NCBI GenBank assembly: GCA_947447265.1
Contig: CANFKC010000035.1
Location: 1-50,467, forward strand
Direction of reading: 5' to 3'
Length of the DNA stretch: 50,467 nt
DNA from: Chitinophagaceae bacterium
Lineage (GTDB): Bacteria > Bacteroidota > Bacteroidia > Chitinophagales > Chitinophagaceae
Below the pieces are notes generated by a model. That model was not told the DNA's origin. It ran no database searches and saw only the letters and a list, made by a program, of their open reading frames with translations. Shown here one piece after another: positions 3,802-35,176 of the stretch. Both the position numbers and the translations under genes were made by a program. The stretch's first letter is position 1; each line of letters starts with the position of its first letter.

Positions 3802-4653
3802 TCACTCGCCATAATGCACATGCCGTTTATCCGTAAACAAACCAATCAGCGATTTTACAGGATCTGTATCCCGCTCGCGGGAGAATAACCCCAGCATCAT
3901 GGTGAGCCACGAAAAATGAGGGTATTGATGATGGGCCTCATGGTTGCCTATACCCATCCCCAGCGGGAACCAGAATGTATTGCTTTCTTTACCGGTATCA
4001 GTGCCCATATGCTCGCACCAGTGGCGGAGCACACTCATCAGGTTAAGGACAAAAAGGGTACCAAGAACAAACCCCAATGGTGGCCTGAAAAAAAAGATCA
4101 ACACAGCGGAAATCATAATTGAAGCGGCCATATACGGTACTCTTATACTTGGCTGCTTTACCGCAACCGCAGCTTTGCCGTCTTTGCCCTTCTTGCCACT
4201 CAAAACTAACACCAAAGTGAACATTAGTGGCACACATTCGCACAGTATGTATAGCCATCTCCTTTCAGCATACATTTCCTTTTTGAATCCCGGCCAGAGC
4301 GGATCAACATCCGTATTGGTATTGGCATGGTGAGTGAGGTGATATTTGCGGAATGGCTCTCCATAAAAAGGAATGAGCATAAGCGCAGCACCCAGGTTCA
4401 TGATGACATAGTCAAACTTACCTCGGGTAATACCCTTATGTGCACCATCGTGAACCGTTATAATAAGAAATGCATGGGCAAGTATACCGGCAGGTATTAC
4501 CACAAAATGATAGCCTGCCCTATACCCGAAAAGACACCAACACATACCCGCATATAACAGAGCTGCCGCAAATAGCGTAACAACGGGTATCAGCCAGCGA
4601 TGCTTTCGTAAACGGTTTTCTATCTGTTGTTCGTTCTCAAATAAATTCTCCAT
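3802..4653 (-). CDS. Membrane fatty acid desaturase/hydroxylase-family protein
   Basis: This 283-residue integral membrane di-iron enzyme carries the desaturase/hydroxylase histidine boxes: HDGAH (68-72), HLTHH (105-109), HWCEH (211-215) and HEAHH (238-242). Hydrophobic helices separate them at about 22-45, 50-68, 82-98, 138-152 and 175-208. Family members use O2 and electrons to desaturate or hydroxylate acyl chains, sterols or carotenoids; the substrate cannot be told from the boxes. It is the last gene of the run HMG-CoA reductase fusion, CarS-like, CDP-alcohol transferase, desaturase, with 82 nt to the gene before it. That context favours a lipid substrate made or used by the cluster. A beta-carotene hydroxylase-like role is the main alternative. 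Confidence 0.85.
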   Translation of the reverse strand: MENLFENEQQIENRLRKHRWLIPVVTLFAAALLYAGMCWCLFGYRAGYHFVVIPAGILAHAFLIITVHDGAHKGITRGKFDYVIMNLGAALMLIPFYGEPFRKYHLTHHANTNTDVDPLWPGFKKEMYAERRWLYILCECVPLMFTLVLVLSGKKGKDGKAAVAVKQPSIRVPYMAASIMISAVLIFFFRPPLGFVLGTLFVLNLMSVLRHWCEHMGTDTGKESNTFWFPLGMGIGNHEAHHQYPHFSWLTMMLGLFSRERDTDPVKSLIGLFTDKRHVHYGE

Positions 4654-4735
4654 CGCAATCGTTTATAAAATAAAACCTTGTAGGTAAATACACGGTATCG
4701 ATTTAGTGAATTAGCCCCAAATGCGTGCCAAAAAT

Positions 4736-5308
4736 TCAGTTCCTTTCTTTCAACACCCAATACAGTCCCCTGCAATCAGAACGCAACTCGCGGAGCGAAA
4801 GCAGCACCGCAACCTCTTCAAGATAGGAGGCAATACCCCATACCATTGCCAGCACAAACAGCACAAGATGAAAGCCCCAGAAAAACAGCACAAAGAAGAA
4901 AATACCCTGCACATAGGCCCCGATCTTTACCGAATATAAATGCAGGCTCGGAAATTTTCTAAAACGCACAAACGAAACAACGTAGGTCAACAGGTATGTT
5001 GCTAAAAACAGCCACAGAAAGATGCCCGACGAGCTTATGAACACCCACTTAAAAACAAAAATGCCACATAGCGCAAGTATGTACGTACCCATATCCGCAA
5101 TTGAATCAAGTCGGGCACCAAATTTTGTTTGTAATTTAAATACCCTCGCTATTAACCCATCCAGTATATCGGTCACCAGGTTTATACACAAGAGAATAGA
5201 AAACAGATGTTCGTTCCCGATAACCACCAGGTACAGAATATATGGAAAGGTAAGCAGCCTGTAAAAGCTGAGCAGATTGGGTAAATTAAAAATTCGTTCC
5301 TTCGGCAT
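4736..5308 (-). CDS. CDP-alcohol phosphatidyltransferase family protein
   Basis: This 190-residue polytopic membrane enzyme has the full family signature DxxDGxxARx8GxxxDxxxD at residues 47-72 (D47, D50, G51, A54, R55, G64, D68, D72). The family transfers the phosphatidyl moiety of a CDP-linked lipid to an alcohol such as glycerol phosphate, serine or inositol, using a divalent metal at the Asp cluster. The length fits the small members. The acceptor alcohol is not evident. It lies 28 nt after the CarS-like gene, which would supply the CDP-activated lipid, so the two probably act in sequence. This makes a head-group transferase for a CarS-type product more likely than the housekeeping PgsA or PssA, though those remain alternatives. 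Confidence 0.92.
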   Translation of the reverse strand: MPKERIFNLPNLLSFYRLLTFPYILYLVVIGNEHLFSILLCINLVTDILDGLIARVFKLQTKFGARLDSIADMGTYILALCGIFVFKWVFISSSGIFLWLFLATYLLTYVVSFVRFRKFPSLHLYSVKIGAYVQGIFFFVLFFWGFHLVLFVLAMVWGIASYLEEVAVLLSLRELRSDCRGLYWVLKERN

Positions 5309-5336
5309 AATTAGTTGCTGTAAAAAATAATAGAAG

Positions 5337-5858
5337 CTAAAAGCTCTTCTTAACTCGGATACGGAATAGCAGCCACGAAAAAGTAACGTGAATTAAAAAC
5401 GAAACAAAGAAAAGCAACAATAAATCGCGCACCGAAATAGCCACAAGAAAATAATAAACCAGGCACATCGGCAGCAATGAATCGGTCTTGTCAATTACAT
5501 ACTGTAACCATTTTAACCTGTCATGCGACTGCCCTGCACCAATACCCATATGCCTTTTAACATAAGAGTTCGGCAACTCCCCCAGAAGGTAAACTAAGCC
5601 AAGGATAAAACCCATAGCAAACGACCAACCCAGATTTGCATCATGCAAAACTGCCGTACGGAGCAACAAACATGTGAACCCGCAAACCAAAGGCATAACC
5701 AAAAAGGCCCTGTATGTTTTACCTGCGCCAAATAGCGGTAAAGAAAGTGGCCTTGCGAGCCAGGCAAACGTATTGCGCTTTACCAGCAGCATGTGCAAGA
5801 CATTGCCGACAAAAAGCGGCAAAATAAAGGTGTAGATATGTGTTGCGAAATCTAACAT
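5337..5858 (-). CDS. CarS-like CDP-archaeol synthase homologue (CTP-dependent lipid cytidylyltransferase)
   Basis: This 173-residue membrane protein resembles the CarS/DUF46 family, which in archaea activates unsaturated archaetidic acid with CTP. Visible family-like features are GAGKTYRAF (45-53), GELPNSYVKRHMGIGAG (93-109) and DKTDSLL (123-129), set between hydrophobic helices. They match the G-x-N-K-T-x-R and (S/N)-x-V-K-R...D-x-x-D pattern shared by CarS and CdsA. The frame is open upstream to 6005, but I choose the ATG at 5858 because it overlaps the preceding stop as TAATG, the mark of translational coupling, and the transmembrane domain starts there. The CDP-alcohol transferase follows directly. 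Family assignment is by motif reading only; the lipid substrate is unknown. Confidence 0.75.
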   Translation of the reverse strand: MLDFATHIYTFILPLFVGNVLHMLLVKRNTFAWLARPLSLPLFGAGKTYRAFLVMPLVCGFTCLLLRTAVLHDANLGWSFAMGFILGLVYLLGELPNSYVKRHMGIGAGQSHDRLKWLQYVIDKTDSLLPMCLVYYFLVAISVRDLLLLFFVSFLIHVTFSWLLFRIRVKKSF

Positions 5859-8191
5859 TAGGCCTTTAGTAATTTTATCATCCTCATGGTATTCCTGAAA
5901 ACTCGTTTTGCAAAAGGATAGTCCGCAATTGTGCCACCAGCAAGGTAAAACGAAATGCGCGTAAACAAATATTCGTAAGCCACGGCTATGCAATCTTCCA
6001 CCCAATAGTTAAAAGAAATCTCAGTAACAGTCGCAGCCTCAAATAGGGCATGGTGATACTGAATATATCCCATCAGTTCTTCCCGCTCAAACCCATCTTG
6101 CAAAACAAAAGAGAGCAACTCCATAACATCACGCTGCGGCACATTTAAAGTACTAAGCTCCCAGTCATAAATACATACACGGCCATCATTTCTGATCGCA
6201 ATATTGCGCGGATTATAATCGTTATGGACCAGCGTAAGCGGCGTCCTTTTTACAGCATGATTTGTGAGGAGGTCTGACATCGCCATCTCAATTTCTGCGA
6301 AATCACTATCCATGTTGTTGCCATAGTATTCATCACGGTTTACCCTGTTCATAAACCTGTAAAAAGGCAGTCCGGGCATTGGGTCGAATGCCGCAACATG
6401 TTTCGGCGCTTCTGCATCCGCCAGCAAATAATGAGCATGCACGCGGGTTATACTATCAATTGTATGCTGTATCGCAGTGGGCGACCACAATTCCGGCTTG
6501 TTCTCACTATTGAATAACTGCATGGCACTGCCATCCAGGTACTCCATCATCAGCAGATGTATCTCTCTGTTTTCGTCGTTGTGAGAACCAAAGTAATGGG
6601 GTATATTCTTAAAACCGCTGTTGTACAGATATTCATATACCTCAATTTCCTTGTAGTGACTGTCCATAAATTCGAAGCAGGATTTATACTGCAGCAACTT
6701 ATCGGCCAATTCATTGTTGATGCTCGAGGCCATGTAGTGCAGGCCTTTTATTACTTCTTCATCAACAGGCTTACTCTTAATAACCATAGGCTTTTGCTCG
6801 CCCGCAATGGTTACTTCGAAAGGAATAAACCCAATCACTTTTCGGGATACTTTGCCAGTGAGTTCTGTAAGCACGCCATTATCCATGGTCATGCCTTCTT
6901 TAAATGTCACACCTTGCAATTGTGCACCTTCAATGTTGCTTATATGCTTCGCTATATAGTCGCTGTCTATCTCTGATCTCAGTAACCAGTTCACCGGTTT
7001 ATTTCTGCCTAGTTTCTGGTGGGCTCTTGCGAACTGCCCGCTCACTATGGCTGCAAGGGTTGAAAGTTCCAGCGCGAGAGCAAACCCTGCTATTATTTTA
7101 GCGAAACGTTCTACGCCACCCTGTCCGGCGCACCCCATAAACCGGAGCAGCGTATTTTGTGCAGGTAAGTGCGTACCGCCACCCACTGTACCAATAACCA
7201 GGTTGGGCAGCGAAAGCGATACATACAAGCCTTCGGCCGTCCTTTCTAATTGCAGTATGCCGGTTGAAGATTCATGTATGCAGGCAAGGTCTTGCGCGGT
7301 CGCGGCAAAAAAACCAGCGACGGCATTGGCGACATTAATATTGTAACCTACCATGCCATCCATCCTGCTTATGGCCATGCTGTGCACATACGATTGAAAC
7401 ATATCGTCGGCAGTTGTGCGCAGGTGCTTTACTATGGCTTCGTTAGAAATAAACCCTTCGCAAACCACGTGCACACCCCGACCCGATTGCATAGAATAGT
7501 AAGACACTTTTTTGTCAGAAGCGCCATTCCCATCTATAACATATCTAAGTATGGGATAGTTGTGCTGTTGGTTAAAATGTTCTTCTATCCATAGGCAGGC
7601 ATGCCAGGTGCAGGTAGTGGTCATGTTCTGGCCCGAGGCATCGCCTGTTGTATAAATAAATTTCAGGTGCACAATTTTGCCAATCACATAGGGCTTTATC
7701 TCCAGCAATTCTGCGTAATTGGAATAATCCTTGGTTACCTTCTTTATTTTTTCGAAACTGGCTTGTGCCCATGCCGTAAATTCAATGGCTTGTGCCAGGC
7801 TGGCAAAGGTGAACATGGGCGTGCGCACCATTTTCTGGTACAGCATACTGGCAGCAAACCCACCCGATTCATTTATGGCCTTAGCGCCCCTGCTCATGCT
7901 GGCCACTAATGCACCCTCGGTAGTGCCTATTGCGCCAAACATTTCTTCAAGGGTATTGTCCGGGTGCTTCATGAGCAACGGACCGACAACACCAACTGGT
8001 ATTTCCACCGACCCTATAAACGACTCTATATTATGCTTAACCTGCTCCAGTTTCAATTCAGTATTTACAACCGGTTCAAAGTCAATTTCAAAATTGTGCA
8101 GAAAATCAATACGCTGCTGGTACCCTGCCTGATTCATGAGGCCTCGACCAGGTATGGCAGTTGCCGCTTTCAATATTTTTTGTTCCATCAT
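5858..8191 (-). CDS. Class I HMG-CoA reductase fused to an APH/choline-kinase-like kinase
   Basis: This is a 777-residue two-domain protein. Residues about 15-400 are HMG-CoA reductase, which makes mevalonate from HMG-CoA. The segments are class I-like (eukaryotic/archaeal type): TEGALVAS with Glu93, GDASGQN (183-189, where GDAMGMN is usual), DKK (226-228) with the catalytic Lys, AQDLAC with Asp301, IGTVGGGT (333-340), and AHQKLGR with His391. Residues about 440-777 form a kinase of the APH/choline kinase fold: an N-lobe Lys in MVIKSKP, the Brenner-type HNDYNPRN (656-663), and DWE with Asp676. All key residues of both domains are present. The stop overlaps the CarS-like start (TAATG). A perfect -7 box TACATTTG (8206-8213, this strand) lies 14 nt upstream of the first of two adjacent ATGs. 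The kinase substrate is unknown; mevalonate or a lipid alcohol are candidates. Confidence 0.9.
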   Translation of the reverse strand: MMEQKILKAATAIPGRGLMNQAGYQQRIDFLHNFEIDFEPVVNTELKLEQVKHNIESFIGSVEIPVGVVGPLLMKHPDNTLEEMFGAIGTTEGALVASMSRGAKAINESGGFAASMLYQKMVRTPMFTFASLAQAIEFTAWAQASFEKIKKVTKDYSNYAELLEIKPYVIGKIVHLKFIYTTGDASGQNMTTTCTWHACLWIEEHFNQQHNYPILRYVIDGNGASDKKVSYYSMQSGRGVHVVCEGFISNEAIVKHLRTTADDMFQSYVHSMAISRMDGMVGYNINVANAVAGFFAATAQDLACIHESSTGILQLERTAEGLYVSLSLPNLVIGTVGGGTHLPAQNTLLRFMGCAGQGGVERFAKIIAGFALALELSTLAAIVSGQFARAHQKLGRNKPVNWLLRSEIDSDYIAKHISNIEGAQLQGVTFKEGMTMDNGVLTELTGKVSRKVIGFIPFEVTIAGEQKPMVIKSKPVDEEVIKGLHYMASSINNELADKLLQYKSCFEFMDSHYKEIEVYEYLYNSGFKNIPHYFGSHNDENREIHLLMMEYLDGSAMQLFNSENKPELWSPTAIQHTIDSITRVHAHYLLADAEAPKHVAAFDPMPGLPFYRFMNRVNRDEYYGNNMDSDFAEIEMAMSDLLTNHAVKRTPLTLVHNDYNPRNIAIRNDGRVCIYDWELSTLNVPQRDVMELLSFVLQDGFEREELMGYIQYHHALFEAATVTEISFNYWVEDCIAVAYEYLFTRISFYLAGGTIADYPFAKRVFRNTMRMIKLLKA

Positions 8192-8277: not shown

Positions 8278-9507
8278 TTAATTAACGGGAATTCCCATCC
8301 AGGTATACTTATAGAACATGCTCTTGCGCCCTATCTTGCTCTTGCTGAAGTATTTCACCAGGAAATCCTTTTGCTCCCCAACATGCACCTGTACGTCGTC
8401 TATCGACTTTCTTAAAGTTATAATCAGAGTTGCGAGCGAAGGCTTCGGTTTCTTAATTGAAGTCAGTTTTGCAATGGCTTTACTAAGGTTGGCATCTGCG
8501 AGGTCTACCATCGCCTGTATGTCAGCATCTTCCCGCATAGGCTTGAACTGGCTGTTGCGGTAGTTCACAAAATCATTAAAGTCATTAATACCCTTGTTAT
8601 AGTCGGCTACCGCGGCATTATACAAATCTATGCCAGCATTTTCCTCATTGTTGGCGGTTAACTGTTTATCATATTCTACCTCTCTTTTCAGGTGCACCAA
8701 CATATCGTATATCATGGAATTTTTCACTCCATTGCCCTCTACCCTGCGCGCTGCTGCGGCAGTTTGTTCCGTTTTGGATTGCCTGTTCCACGCCTGTATA
8801 GAATCTTTATAGTTAAATACTGGCTTTGTTGCATCAGGCTTTATGCTCCCCTGATAAAATTCAGCATTGGTTATGGGGTAGGTAAGGCATTCCCATATCG
8901 GGTCAAATGGCATGTGCGATTTTATTATGGCTGTTGGTTTAGCCATGAAATAGTCATTATTGATGTGCGGTACAAATTTACCATTGCTTATATAGCCCGA
9001 GCCCCAGGTAGGGTCAAACAAAAACCAATCACCCCCTATCATTGCTGCGCACCACGCATGCGGAATATAATCGGTAAAGCCTTGCTGCTTTGTATACCCA
9101 CTCACCACAAACGCCTGAATGCCGCACTTTGTTACGATATCATGAAAAATGTTGGCATAGTCAATGCATATACCCTTTTGCGTTGCAAATGTTTTAGCTA
9201 TACGCTCGTCAGGCTTTTCGTAAAAGTTGATGGAGAACATATTGTCCACATCATACTTTACATTAGTTGCCAGCCATATAAAGGCAGCCCTTGCCTTGTC
9301 TTCATCTCTGGTAAAATTGGCATCAATATACTGTGCAATGGCTGGTGTCGATTGCGCGGTTGAAGGCGAGATAGCCAGCGCCTTTTTATCAACTGCCGCA
9401 TAATTATTGACGGCAGGCTTAGTCGGCGCTTTCGGTATGCTTTTCTGGGCATGAAGCTGAACGTGCAGCAACAGCATTATAACCAGCAGTTTGGGTAATC
9501 TTTTCAT
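8278..9507 (-). CDS. Secreted transglutaminase-fold (cysteine protease-like) protein
   Basis: The chosen start (9507) gives 409 residues and a clean signal peptide, MKRLPKLLVIMLLLHVQLHAQ. The frame is open 18 codons further upstream, but that would bury the signal. A transglutaminase-like core follows, with the catalytic triad in order: Cys114 in KGICIDYA, His150 in PHAWC, and Asp165 in FDPTWGSGY. The pattern is closest to the KY/kyphoscoliosis type of transglutaminase-fold peptidases. The C-terminal half is helical, Lys-rich and without a recognised domain. It lacks a T9SS sorting domain, so a periplasmic location is likely. It follows the TMTC-like glycosyltransferase gene by 61 nt on the same strand, suggesting co-transcription. 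The substrate is unknown. Confidence 0.85.
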   Translation of the reverse strand: MKRLPKLLVIMLLLHVQLHAQKSIPKAPTKPAVNNYAAVDKKALAISPSTAQSTPAIAQYIDANFTRDEDKARAAFIWLATNVKYDVDNMFSINFYEKPDERIAKTFATQKGICIDYANIFHDIVTKCGIQAFVVSGYTKQQGFTDYIPHAWCAAMIGGDWFLFDPTWGSGYISNGKFVPHINNDYFMAKPTAIIKSHMPFDPIWECLTYPITNAEFYQGSIKPDATKPVFNYKDSIQAWNRQSKTEQTAAAARRVEGNGVKNSMIYDMLVHLKREVEYDKQLTANNEENAGIDLYNAAVADYNKGINDFNDFVNYRNSQFKPMREDADIQAMVDLADANLSKAIAKLTSIKKPKPSLATLIITLRKSIDDVQVHVGEQKDFLVKYFSKSKIGRKSMFYKYTWMGIPVN

Positions 9508-9568
9508 AACAATTTCATCAATAAAATTTGTAACTGATGCGCTGTAAAAGTAGCTAATCATCTACAAA

Positions 9569-33943: not shown

Positions 33944-35176
33944 CTAAACACCCTCCCATTTAGCCTGTAACGTGGCAACAGCGCCTGCATTGCCCGTAAG
34001 TGTGGCAAGCCTCGCAATTACACGCTCTACTAACGCATCGGGGCACGAAGCACCGGAAGTTATCATTACCCTGAATGGTTTGAACGGTGGCAGATAACCT
34101 GTTGTTACCAATTCCTTATGCTGGTGCAGATCGTAATGCCTGATTTCATTGGCAGACACTAGGCAATTTTCGTCACTAATAAAGTAGGTAGGTAATTTCA
34201 GTTCGCACAATTCAACAAGGTGCGATGTGTTAGAGCTGTTGTAACCGCCTACCACCAGCGCGAAGTCGGCATCTTCTTCCAGCATACCGGTAACAGCACT
34301 CTGGTTATCATTAGTGGCATAACACAGCGTATCGCGGGTATCAGCAACGCGTTCGCTGCTGCGGTGGGTGGGTATACCATAATGGTCAAGAATAACGTTT
34401 TTCAGATAATCGGCAATGCCTTGTGTTTCGCTGGCAAGCATGGTTGTCTGGTTCACTACACCAATTCGCTCCAGGTCTTTGGTAACATCAAAACCATCAG
34501 AATACTGCCCCTTAAAATCAATGTAAAATTGTTCGTCAGGTAGTTCACGCATTACATACTGACCCAGTAGTTCCGCCTGTGCCATATCTTTTACTACCAC
34601 TGTCGGCGTGTGTGCCTTACTGTGCGAAAAAGTAGCCCTGGTTTCTTCATGGCCGGGTTTGCCATGTACCACAATGGTATACCCCTCGTCGCCAATTTTA
34701 CCGGCACGGTTCCATACCTTTTCTACAAAGGGACAGGTGGTTTCGTAGTGGGTAGGGTTTATGCCTTTATCTTTCAGCAATTGTTCCATTTCCAGCGTAG
34801 TGCCGAAAGCGGGTATAATTACCACATCGTCACTCGTAATATCATCCCAGCTCATAAGCATATTGCCCTTGGTATCCATTACAAACCGGATACCGAGCGC
34901 CTGCAAGTCGGCATTTACACCCGGGTTATGTATCATTTCGCTCAGCAGGAAGATGCGCTTGCCTTTATTCTCCTCCACCGCCCTGAAGGCTATCTCTATT
35001 GCATTTTCCACGCCATAACAAAAACCAAAATGCCGTGCCAATAAAATCTGTAAAGAACCCGCTTCCAATACGGTAGGGGTGTAATCCTTTTTCATTTTAT
35101 CATCAGCCTTTCTTTTTTGCTTAATAGCCGATACCAATGGGCTGCGATAATGTTCAGGAACGTTGAATGACTTCAT
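33944..35176 (-). CDS. ispH: 4-hydroxy-3-methylbut-2-enyl diphosphate reductase IspH
   Basis: IspH is the last enzyme of the MEP pathway: it reduces HMBPP to IPP and DMAPP with an iron-sulfur cluster. The 410-residue protein is the long plant/cyanobacterium-like form. The three cluster Cys are in GFCYGV (Cys53), ETTCPFVEKVWNRA (Cys148) and DTLCYATNDNQ (Cys285). The HNPGVN and VVGGYNSSNTSHL segments are also present. Its presence says that this organism makes isoprenoids by the MEP route, which bears on the HMG-CoA reductase at 5858-8191. A perfect -7 box, TAATTTTG, lies seven nucleotides before the ATG, so the mRNA may be leaderless. Confidence 0.96.
   Translation of the reverse strand: MKSFNVPEHYRSPLVSAIKQKRKADDKMKKDYTPTVLEAGSLQILLARHFGFCYGVENAIEIAFRAVEENKGKRIFLLSEMIHNPGVNADLQALGIRFVMDTKGNMLMSWDDITSDDVVIIPAFGTTLEMEQLLKDKGINPTHYETTCPFVEKVWNRAGKIGDEGYTIVVHGKPGHEETRATFSHSKAHTPTVVVKDMAQAELLGQYVMRELPDEQFYIDFKGQYSDGFDVTKDLERIGVVNQTTMLASETQGIADYLKNVILDHYGIPTHRSSERVADTRDTLCYATNDNQSAVTGMLEEDADFALVVGGYNSSNTSHLVELCELKLPTYFISDENCLVSANEIRHYDLHQHKELVTTGYLPPFKPFRVMITSGASCPDALVERVIARLATLTGNAGAVATLQAKWEGV

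Follow-up and report, generated by a model that had tools for sequence, protein, structure and literature searches.

A kinase-fused HMG-CoA reductase homologue encoded with CarS-like and CDP-alcohol phosphotransferase proteins in a Chitinophagaceae bacterium: an operon that may make a glycerol-free polar lipid

What would a bacterium with enzymes of the MEP pathway make with a homologue of HMG-CoA reductase (HMGR) that is encoded next to a relative of the archaeal CDP-archaeol synthase CarS? The question is raised by four genes in a 50,467-nucleotide stretch of a Chitinophagaceae genome (contig CANFKC010000035.1; here, the window), which a first-pass annotation had read as an operon that may make a special isoprenoid-based or mevalonate-derived phospholipid. 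All four open reading frames lie on the minus strand, start with ATG and are intact, with zero internal stops (Table 1). The tight spacing that had been described is real: the first two genes overlap by 1 nt in a TAATG, followed by gaps of 28 nt between the CarS-like and CDP-alcohol phosphotransferase (CDP-OH) genes and 82 nt between the latter and the desaturase gene. Pfam bears out the family assigned to each, with matches to PF01864 for the CarS-like protein (E = 1e-5; 26 bits, cut-off 22), PF01066 (CDP-OH_P_transf, 1.3e-19) and PF00487 (FA_desaturase, 8.1e-17). The gene annotated as HMG-CoA reductase does belong to that family (HMG-CoA_red, PF00368, 7.5e-100, residues 25-396), and additionally encodes an APH-type kinase (PF01636, 9.7e-13, residues 514-714) within the same protein, which we term RK. 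IspH is indeed encoded at 33944-35176 (LYTB match, 1.8e-65).

Table 1. Positions of the operon genes and of the two RK domains within the window.
Feature	Position	Strand	Length	Remarks
RK (HMGR-like + APH-type kinase fusion)	5858..8191	-	777 aa	
HMGR-like domain of RK	7004..8119	-		
APH-type kinase domain of RK	6050..6652	-		HND-x4-N ... DWE motifs
CarS-like CTP:lipid-phosphate cytidylyltransferase	5337..5858	-	173 aa	predicted activity
CDP-alcohol phosphotransferase (CDP-OH)	4736..5308	-	190 aa	
Membrane fatty-acid desaturase/hydroxylase-type protein	3802..4653	-	283 aa	

Fold comparison of an AF2 model of RK (pLDDT 87.1, pTM 0.57) returned HMG-CoA reductases for all 50 matches listed, and none of these therefore covers the kinase half. 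The catalytic residues E559, K691, D767 and H866 (human numbering; E92, K227, D301 and H391 in the window) are present in 47/47 full fused HMGR domains, as are R590, D690 and K692, which also line the HMG pocket (pocket residues follow PMC3875450). Other positions of the pocket are altered: where the human enzyme has S684, K735 and H752, the window has D220, S271 and N286. The S684 position is aspartate in 10 fused domains and glutamate in 37, but serine in the four solved HMGRs listed and in an HMGR from a mevalonate cluster (L134), while the H752 position is asparagine or aspartate in all 47. At the K735 column S271 is aligned to the lysine of all four solved enzymes and no fusion row has lysine; this column is gap-dependent, as 13 of the 47 contain a lysine that is offset by a few residues, and the L134 control shows N in one alignment and K in another. 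Nine further RKs have an identical residue pattern at these sites, although one (L182) apparently duplicates the L083 contig. The 47 domains form a single tree group (support 100/100), and the window's protein scores 264.5 bits against the HMGR equivalog TIGR00533, below its cut-off of 441.8. At four other loci (L089, L126, L127, L129) the same kinase carries a fatty-acyl/thioester reductase domain (NAD_binding_4) in place of HMGR, in one case with an acyl-carrier domain ahead of the reductase.

The first-pass proposal that the reductase supplies mevalonate or an isoprenoid is not supported; the altered pocket and this exchange of reductases speak against it. In its most developed form, a genuine HMGR would make mevalonate, the fused kinase would convert it to mevalonate 5-phosphate, and a mevalonate-derived or isoprenoid phospholipid would incorporate this unit. 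Strong overall similarity to HMGR in sequence and fold and the retained residues of the active site agree with such a scheme, and a kinase attached to an alcohol-making enzyme is how a fusion of HMGR and mevalonate kinase would be expected to look. Against it stand the acidic residue at S684, the non-lysine at the gap-dependent K735 position, the reductase exchange and the gene content of the genome, and we consider it unlikely. IspE and IspH, the two MEP enzymes looked at, are both encoded. Three GHMP kinases were scored, one being IspE, over its cut-off; the heptose-kinase-like second reaches 78 bits and the third 29 bits against the mevalonate-kinase model TIGR00549 (cut-off 163), so that none of the three is at mevalonate-kinase level. 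A full mevalonate pathway elsewhere in the genome was not seen, in a search that left out HMG-CoA synthase. Because IspE and IspH are present and a GHMP kinase at mevalonate-kinase level is absent, we rejected mevalonate supply for bulk isoprenoids as the leading idea. Despite its annotation as HMG-CoA reductase, the reductase of RK probably has no part in the mevalonate pathway.

The kinase half has the HxDxxxxN and DWE catalytic motifs of APH-type kinases, invariant (H656, D658, N663, D676) in a 23-row alignment; against the ecdysteroid-kinase-like family PF02958 it scores above the cut-off in L126 and L107 and below it in the window and L112. Without a reductase, this kinase adjoins BtaA-like genes in L107, L190 and L191. 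A search of genome contigs with the whole fusion gave nothing, and the kinase half as query found relatives at 52 loci in several phyla (RK relatives are L081-L133 and L181-L189). In L188 the RK frame of 1523 aa extends into Ns and does not contain a third domain. The genes co-occur in other genomes: L181, from another family of Bacteroidia, has RK, CarS and CDP-OH in the same order as the window, with identities of 72% (HMGR part), 50% (kinase part), 54% (CarS) and 60% (CDP-OH). By this shared gene order, the operon is more than a chance association. The relatives that carry the cluster belong exclusively to further families of Bacteroidia or to more distant groups; in the order itself, 24 HMGR-gene regions of Bacteroidota, some of them just 6-9 kb long, were rejected as cluster relatives, none having the kinase, CarS, CDP-OH or desaturase. 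A CarS gene lies near RK in 10/18 non-actinobacterial loci versus 0/36 actinobacterial ones, so the fusion as such has no fixed link to phospholipids. In the class sample, CarS accompanies 6/9 reductase-bearing RK loci (L182 included). Four of the five gammaproteobacterial loci (L085, L096, L100 and L118; not L127) share a set consisting of a UbiA-like protein, RK, a PEP-synthase-type protein, protein c10, an AMP ligase, CDP-OH and CarS; the sole PDB match of the UbiA-like profile is DGGGP synthase (8e-7). A PF01553 acyltransferase is present in L185 and L187. Our literature search found no paper connecting these genes.

Many actinobacterial relatives adjoin GH3, TMK-like and DUF6182 genes, a Gordonia relative lies beside ketosynthase and condensation-domain proteins, export systems occur near some relatives, and the PEP-synthase-type partner resembles prodigiosin ligases, under their cut-offs. 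Such surroundings would suit a secreted specialised metabolite, a phosphodiester-bearing natural product instead of a membrane lipid. We regard this as rather unlikely for the window, where the four nearest neighbours scanned (transglutaminase-like, TPR, MnmE and one small protein) include no export, NRPS or PKS gene, and where CarS and CDP-OH constitute a membrane-lipid pair.

The assignment of the second gene's product to the CarS type, not to CdsA, is upheld by profile, fold and tree. The protein matches NCBIfam PRK04032 (1.9e-11, 44 bits), far below the equivalog cut-off of 148, and some relatives fall under the PF01864 cut-off (L096, 20.3 bits; L183, 18.4 bits). Its AF2 model (pLDDT 89.9) has as top fold match the CDP-archaeol synthase 5guf (probability 1.00, TM 0.56/0.60, E 0.085), with no match at E <= 0.001. 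In the tree, 15 cluster CarS proteins and 5guf are split from 22 longer proteins with support 99/99. A CdsA sequence pattern matched just one of these 22, and therefore ten of them were scanned with Pfam; all ten are CTP_transf_1 (188-220 bits). As a group of their own, the cluster CarS proteins have lower support (89/92), and archaeal CarS is represented by a single fragmentary row with a long branch. The CarS-like query had no match among plasmids, and of 395 Bacteroidota genomes the window alone gave a match covering almost the entire CarS model.

This grouping with archaeal CarS invites a second isoprenoid scheme, in which GGGP synthase and a DGGGP synthase-like UbiA would make DGGGP, CarS would give CDP-archaeol and CDP-OH would add the head group, with RK supplying just a side product. 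The search of the genome that had been suggested did find a GGGP synthase (L002), over NCBIfam cut-offs, and two UbiA proteins (L143, L144) that match DGGGP synthase models below their cut-offs; archaeal-like lipid genes have also been reported from FCB-superphylum bacteria (PMC7852524). GGGP synthase, however, lies on a different contig from the operon and occurs in 92/99 genomes of the order, and is therefore no marker of the cluster, in contrast to the near-whole CarS match confined to the window; an archaeal-type ether lipid is thus improbable, and the isoprenoid reading of the operon as a whole is weak.

The CDP-OH protein has the motif D-x2-DG-x2-AR-x8-G-x3-D-x3-D, read from its sequence, which we take to be the catalytic motif of CDP-alcohol phosphotransferases. 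Its gene follows CarS immediately in the window, L181 and L183. Relatives of 60% and 49% identity flank RK-CarS on either side in L181, others occur in L183 (55%) and L189 (47%), and a 36% relative in L162 adjoins an ordinary CdsA-type gene. Desaturase relatives are found near RK in L084 (45%), L181 (53%) and L184 (48%).

A special phospholipid thus remains the natural reading of the operon, the unsupported part of the first-pass annotation being the supply of mevalonate or isoprenoid by HMGR. We tentatively propose, giving it a little less than an even chance, that the operon makes a polar lipid and that an acyl thioester, not glycerol phosphate or mevalonate, is the source of its phosphate-bearing backbone; the product is possibly glycerol-free. 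We infer the substrate, reaction order, head group and product as follows. The HMGR-like domain would form a primary alcohol by reducing an acyl-CoA other than HMG-CoA (perhaps a 3-hydroxyacyl-CoA), and the fused kinase would add phosphate to this alcohol; the CarS-like enzyme and CTP would activate this lipid phosphate to a CDP-alcohol, CDP-OH would replace CMP with a polar head group, and the desaturase would alter the chain. In relatives, the leftover hydroxyl may be prenylated by the UbiA-like partner or acylated by the PF01553 acyltransferase. A single query of the window's own genome with the PEP-synthase-type partner found nothing, a search with the profile of that partner yielded a single match limited to positions 51-156 of the 840 in the model (28 bits, E 1.2e-6; inside a 661-aa frame), and the best match of the UbiA-like profile reached just E 0.06. 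Judged by these searches, the genome lacks a clear orthologue of either partner, which leaves the second chain unexplained there.

A more specific version, which we hold doubtful, is a new phospholipid class with an alkanediol-phosphate backbone, in which the HMGR homologue carries the substrate's carboxylate itself: the D/E at 684 would face K692, a 3-hydroxyacyl-CoA would be reduced and then phosphorylated by the fused kinase, the other hydroxyl would be prenylated or acylated, and the archaeal-type CarS and CDP-OH would complete the lipid. If so, such lipids would mirror the archaeal ones but lack glycerol, with a patchy distribution over several phyla. Should the broader acyl-thioester proposal be true, many "HMG-CoA reductase" genes in MEP-pathway bacteria would be acyl-thioester reductases, not isoprenoid enzymes, those of this branch would feed a kinase, and pathway predictions would need correction; there would also be a phospholipid route with an archaeal-type CarS but without archaeal lipids, which is relevant to how clear-cut the "lipid divide" can be considered.

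Thermomicrobium roseum, whose membrane contains lipids based on long-chain 1,2-diols (PMC2615216), offers a precedent for a non-glycerol backbone in bacterial membranes. With the class I HMGRs of the mevalonate pathway (6hr7, 1dq8), RK shares the fold, the catalytic E/K/D/H and, assumed from the family, the use of NADPH; it differs in the residues at S684, H752 and, in a gap-dependent column, K735, in its fused kinase, in its separate tree group and in a host with MEP enzymes. The CarS-like protein resembles archaeal CarS (5guf) in family, size, fold and the GxxKT and KRxxxIxxG motifs, but is 20% identical to it in the fold alignment, attains 44 of the 148 bits needed for the equivalog and has RK, not GGGP synthase, as its neighbour. 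The CDP-choline-type route consists of choline kinase, a cytidylyltransferase and a CDP-alcohol transferase, and the operon follows the same logic of an APH-fold kinase, CTP transfer and a CDP-OH transferase. Here, however, the alcohol would be made by the fused reductase and the CTP step carried out by a membrane CarS, which suggests that its substrate is a lipid phosphate.

The four open reading frames of the operon and the gaps between them, re-read from the window, match the description in the first-pass annotation exactly. The first gene encodes a fusion protein, here termed RK, in which Pfam places an HMG-CoA reductase (HMGR) domain at residues 25-396 and an APH-type kinase at residues 514-714; a CarS-like cytidylyltransferase (CarS being CDP-archaeol synthase), a CDP-alcohol (CDP-OH) transferase and a desaturase follow. 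Coordinates of these and related features are collected in the table.

Positions of features in the window and in relative loci
Feature	Locus	Positions	Strand	Remark
Four-gene operon	window	3802-8191	minus	
RK	window	5858-8191	minus	operon gene 1
Transglutaminase-like gene	window	8278-9561	minus	86 nt upstream of RK
HMGR homologue	L136	7402-12141		within a carboxylase operon, Sinorhizobium plasmid
RK	L189	9467-11835		genome G746; broken into several frames, damage or assembly error
AMP ligase, DUF3419, stand-alone APH kinase	L190	5542-13545		facing an operon of UbiA-like, PEP-synthase-type and c10 genes
Same gene set	L191	7001-14840		same arrangement
Same gene set	L107	7294-15573		same arrangement

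HMGR matches, listed in full, were found in 25 of the 248 genomes of an order sample, the window genome being counted and the only one from its family, and the regions around the 24 others, some of them short, contained neither the kinase nor the partner genes. Of 395 genomes sampled from the phylum, 32 gave a match, and no match other than the window's own extended beyond query residue 409. A plasmid search returned a single full-length fusion, from Streptomyces (98% covered, 35.5%), and a kinase-half query against genome contigs gave 52 loci (L082-L133); together with the plasmid locus (L081) and the window these form a comparison set of 54. HMGR is the reductase in 48 of them (partial in L120) and a fatty-acyl/thioester reductase in four, while the kinase stands alone in L107 and L132 is interrupted by the end of its contig. 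The kinase occurs in 11 of 395 genomes of a class sample, including the window genome; nine of the other ten carry a reductase-bearing RK and two carry kinase-alone loci, G746 holding both. One class-sample locus, L182, seems to be the L083 contig, with an identical length of 78,638 bases.

Numbering residues by alignment to human HMGR, we found E559, R590, D690, K691, K692, N755, D767 and H866 to be invariant across 47 fused domains, whereas position 684 carries E (37 domains) or D (10 domains) and position 752 carries N (37) or D (10). We take S684, K692 and K735 of HMGR to hold the HMG carboxylate, and R590 and D690 to contact its 3-hydroxyl. The K735 column is non-lysine in the fused domains, yet a lysine lies a few residues off in 13 of the 47, and the control L134, from a plasmid mevalonate cluster, reads N or K there depending on the alignment, so that we regard this change as softer evidence than that at S684, where L134 has S. 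PMC3875450 includes S684 and K692 among the pocket residues and describes hydrogen bonds between K735 and inhibitors. Among 51 standalone Bacteroidota homologues, position 684 is E in 46 and A in five, with H752 kept; since S684 is present in none, many 'HMG-CoA reductase' labels in Bacteroidota may be wrong. In the three plasmid rows L135-L137 this position holds D, a gap and A. The 47 fused domains form a single group (100/100) in which the window adjoins L082/L083 (100/94) and then L084 (100/100), in a tree whose long branches, including those of L084 and L134, are flagged by the program.

In L089, L126, L127 and L129 the place of HMGR is taken by an NAD_binding_4 domain (fatty-acyl/thioester reductase) on the same kinase subfamily, preceded in L126 by an acyl-carrier domain; the kinase half of L129, which Pfam does not report, was assigned from the kinase-half scan and the locus comparison. 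That two unrelated reductases are joined to one kinase argues for a shared job, from which we infer reduction of a thioester to an alcohol followed by phosphorylation, and the thioester need not be HMG-CoA. From the sequences, the operon most likely encodes a route in which RK would convert an acyl-CoA to an alcohol and then to an alcohol phosphate, CarS would form the CDP-alcohol, and the CDP-OH transferase would yield a polar lipid, its chain being desaturated as well. The acidic residue at 684 could pair with K692, standing in for the substrate carboxylate. Because R590 and D690 are kept, our guess is that the product is an alkanediol phosphate made from a 3-hydroxyacyl substrate.

Conserved gene neighbourhoods, which the first-pass annotation named as support for its reading, were found. 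L181 repeats the window as CDP-OH transferase, RK, CarS and CDP-OH transferase, with a desaturase close by on the opposite strand (identities to the window of 72% for the HMGR part, 50% for the kinase part, 54% for CarS and 60% for the CDP-OH transferase). L183 has RK, CarS and CDP-OH transferase with a UbiA-like/PEP-synthase-type pair on the opposite strand, and L189 has UbiA-like, PEP-synthase-type, RK and CarS genes, then CDP-OH transferase past one opposite-strand frame. The order in L082, L083, L185 and L187 is RK, CarS, PEP-synthase-type, UbiA-like, methyltransferase and desaturase; L185 and L187 additionally carry PF01553 acyltransferases, which would fit acylation of the leftover hydroxyl. 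L085, L096, L100 and L118 contain UbiA-like, RK, PEP-synthase-type, c10 (an unassigned protein), AMP ligase, CDP-OH transferase and CarS genes, AMP ligase and CDP-OH transferase being one protein in L085. A fifth gammaproteobacterial locus, L127, combines its fatty-acyl reductase–kinase with CarS, PEP-synthase-type, UbiA-like, methyltransferase and desaturase genes. With the loci sorted by record title, CarS lies near the kinase in 10 of 18 non-actinobacterial loci and in none of the 36 actinobacterial loci. Because several contigs among the 18 reach their end after a few kilobases, a missing CarS is weak evidence in that group.

Actinobacterial loci show a conserved set of their own, comprising c2 (unassigned), DUF6182, a GH3 ligase, the RK fusion and a TMK-like kinase (L081, L086-L088, L091, L092, L094, L095, L097, L099, L104-L106, L109, L115-L117, L119, L122, L123, L125, L128, L130, L131, L133). 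GH3 is present in 25 of the 36, and no mention of DUF6182 was found in the literature searched. The gene set of L190, L191 and L107, whose DUF3419 protein is presumably BtaA-like, perhaps serves a betaine-type lipid.

The UbiA-like label is based on a D-rich motif recognised by visual inspection, two Pfam UbiA scores (47.8 bits in L189, above the cut-off; 33.9 in L183, marginally below the cut-off of 34.2) and a profile whose sole PDB match is DGGGP synthase (8e-7), few UbiA structures being known; Pfam UbiA did not match the five other members scanned (L085, L190, L118, L182, L185). The PEP-synthase-type partner of L085 passes NCBIfam model NF004883, with sub-cut-off resemblance to prodigiosin ligases and rifamycin phosphotransferases as well. 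Pfam scans of the c10 proteins of L085, L118 and L190 found no match.

The CarS-like protein of the window passes the Pfam cut-off (26 bits against 22) and reaches 44 bits where the NCBIfam CDP-archaeol synthase model requires 148; by sequence it is a member of the CarS family and not the archaeal equivalog. Its AlphaFold model (pLDDT 89.9) has archaeal CarS (5guf) as its sole credible fold match (probability 1.00, TM 0.56/0.60, Foldseek E 0.085), no Foldseek match reaching E 0.001. PF01864 matched in 23 of 395 Bacteroidota genomes, and the window's match alone spans almost all of the model (11-172 of 175). The other 22 are partial and lie in frames of 266-332 aa; all ten of these scanned with Pfam are CTP_transf_1 proteins, the ordinary CdsA family (188-220 bits). 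The possibility that the CarS-like protein groups with CdsA is countered by a tree in which 15 cluster CarS proteins and 5guf stand apart from these 22 (99/99); taken alone, the cluster proteins group at 89/92, the one archaeal row being a fragment on a long branch.

The window genome bears out only in part the proposal of an isoprenoid or mevalonate-derived phospholipid in a MEP-pathway bacterium. IspH is present as stated, and IspE passes its cut-off. A mevalonate kinase was not recovered: the genome has three GHMP kinases, and the two besides IspE, a heptose-kinase-like protein (78 bits) and an unassigned protein (29 bits), fall short of the mevalonate-kinase cut-off of 163. GGGP synthase is present, passing three NCBIfam cut-offs, the equivalog model TIGR01769 included, but on another contig and in 92 of 99 order genomes. 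As for DGGGP synthase, two of four UbiA proteins match its models, both below the cut-off, the others being a haem O synthase and a UbiA/MqnP-type protein. The UbiA-like and PEP-synthase-type cluster partners have no clear match in this genome.

A literature search, with most subscription journals outside its reach, returned no paper joining these genes. Archaeal-like lipid genes are known from FCB bacteria (PMC7852524), and Thermomicrobium roseum provides a known case of non-glycerol bacterial membranes (PMC2615216). Each enzyme family is already known, while the gene combination, the fusion and the apparent shift in the use of HMGR seem to be new.
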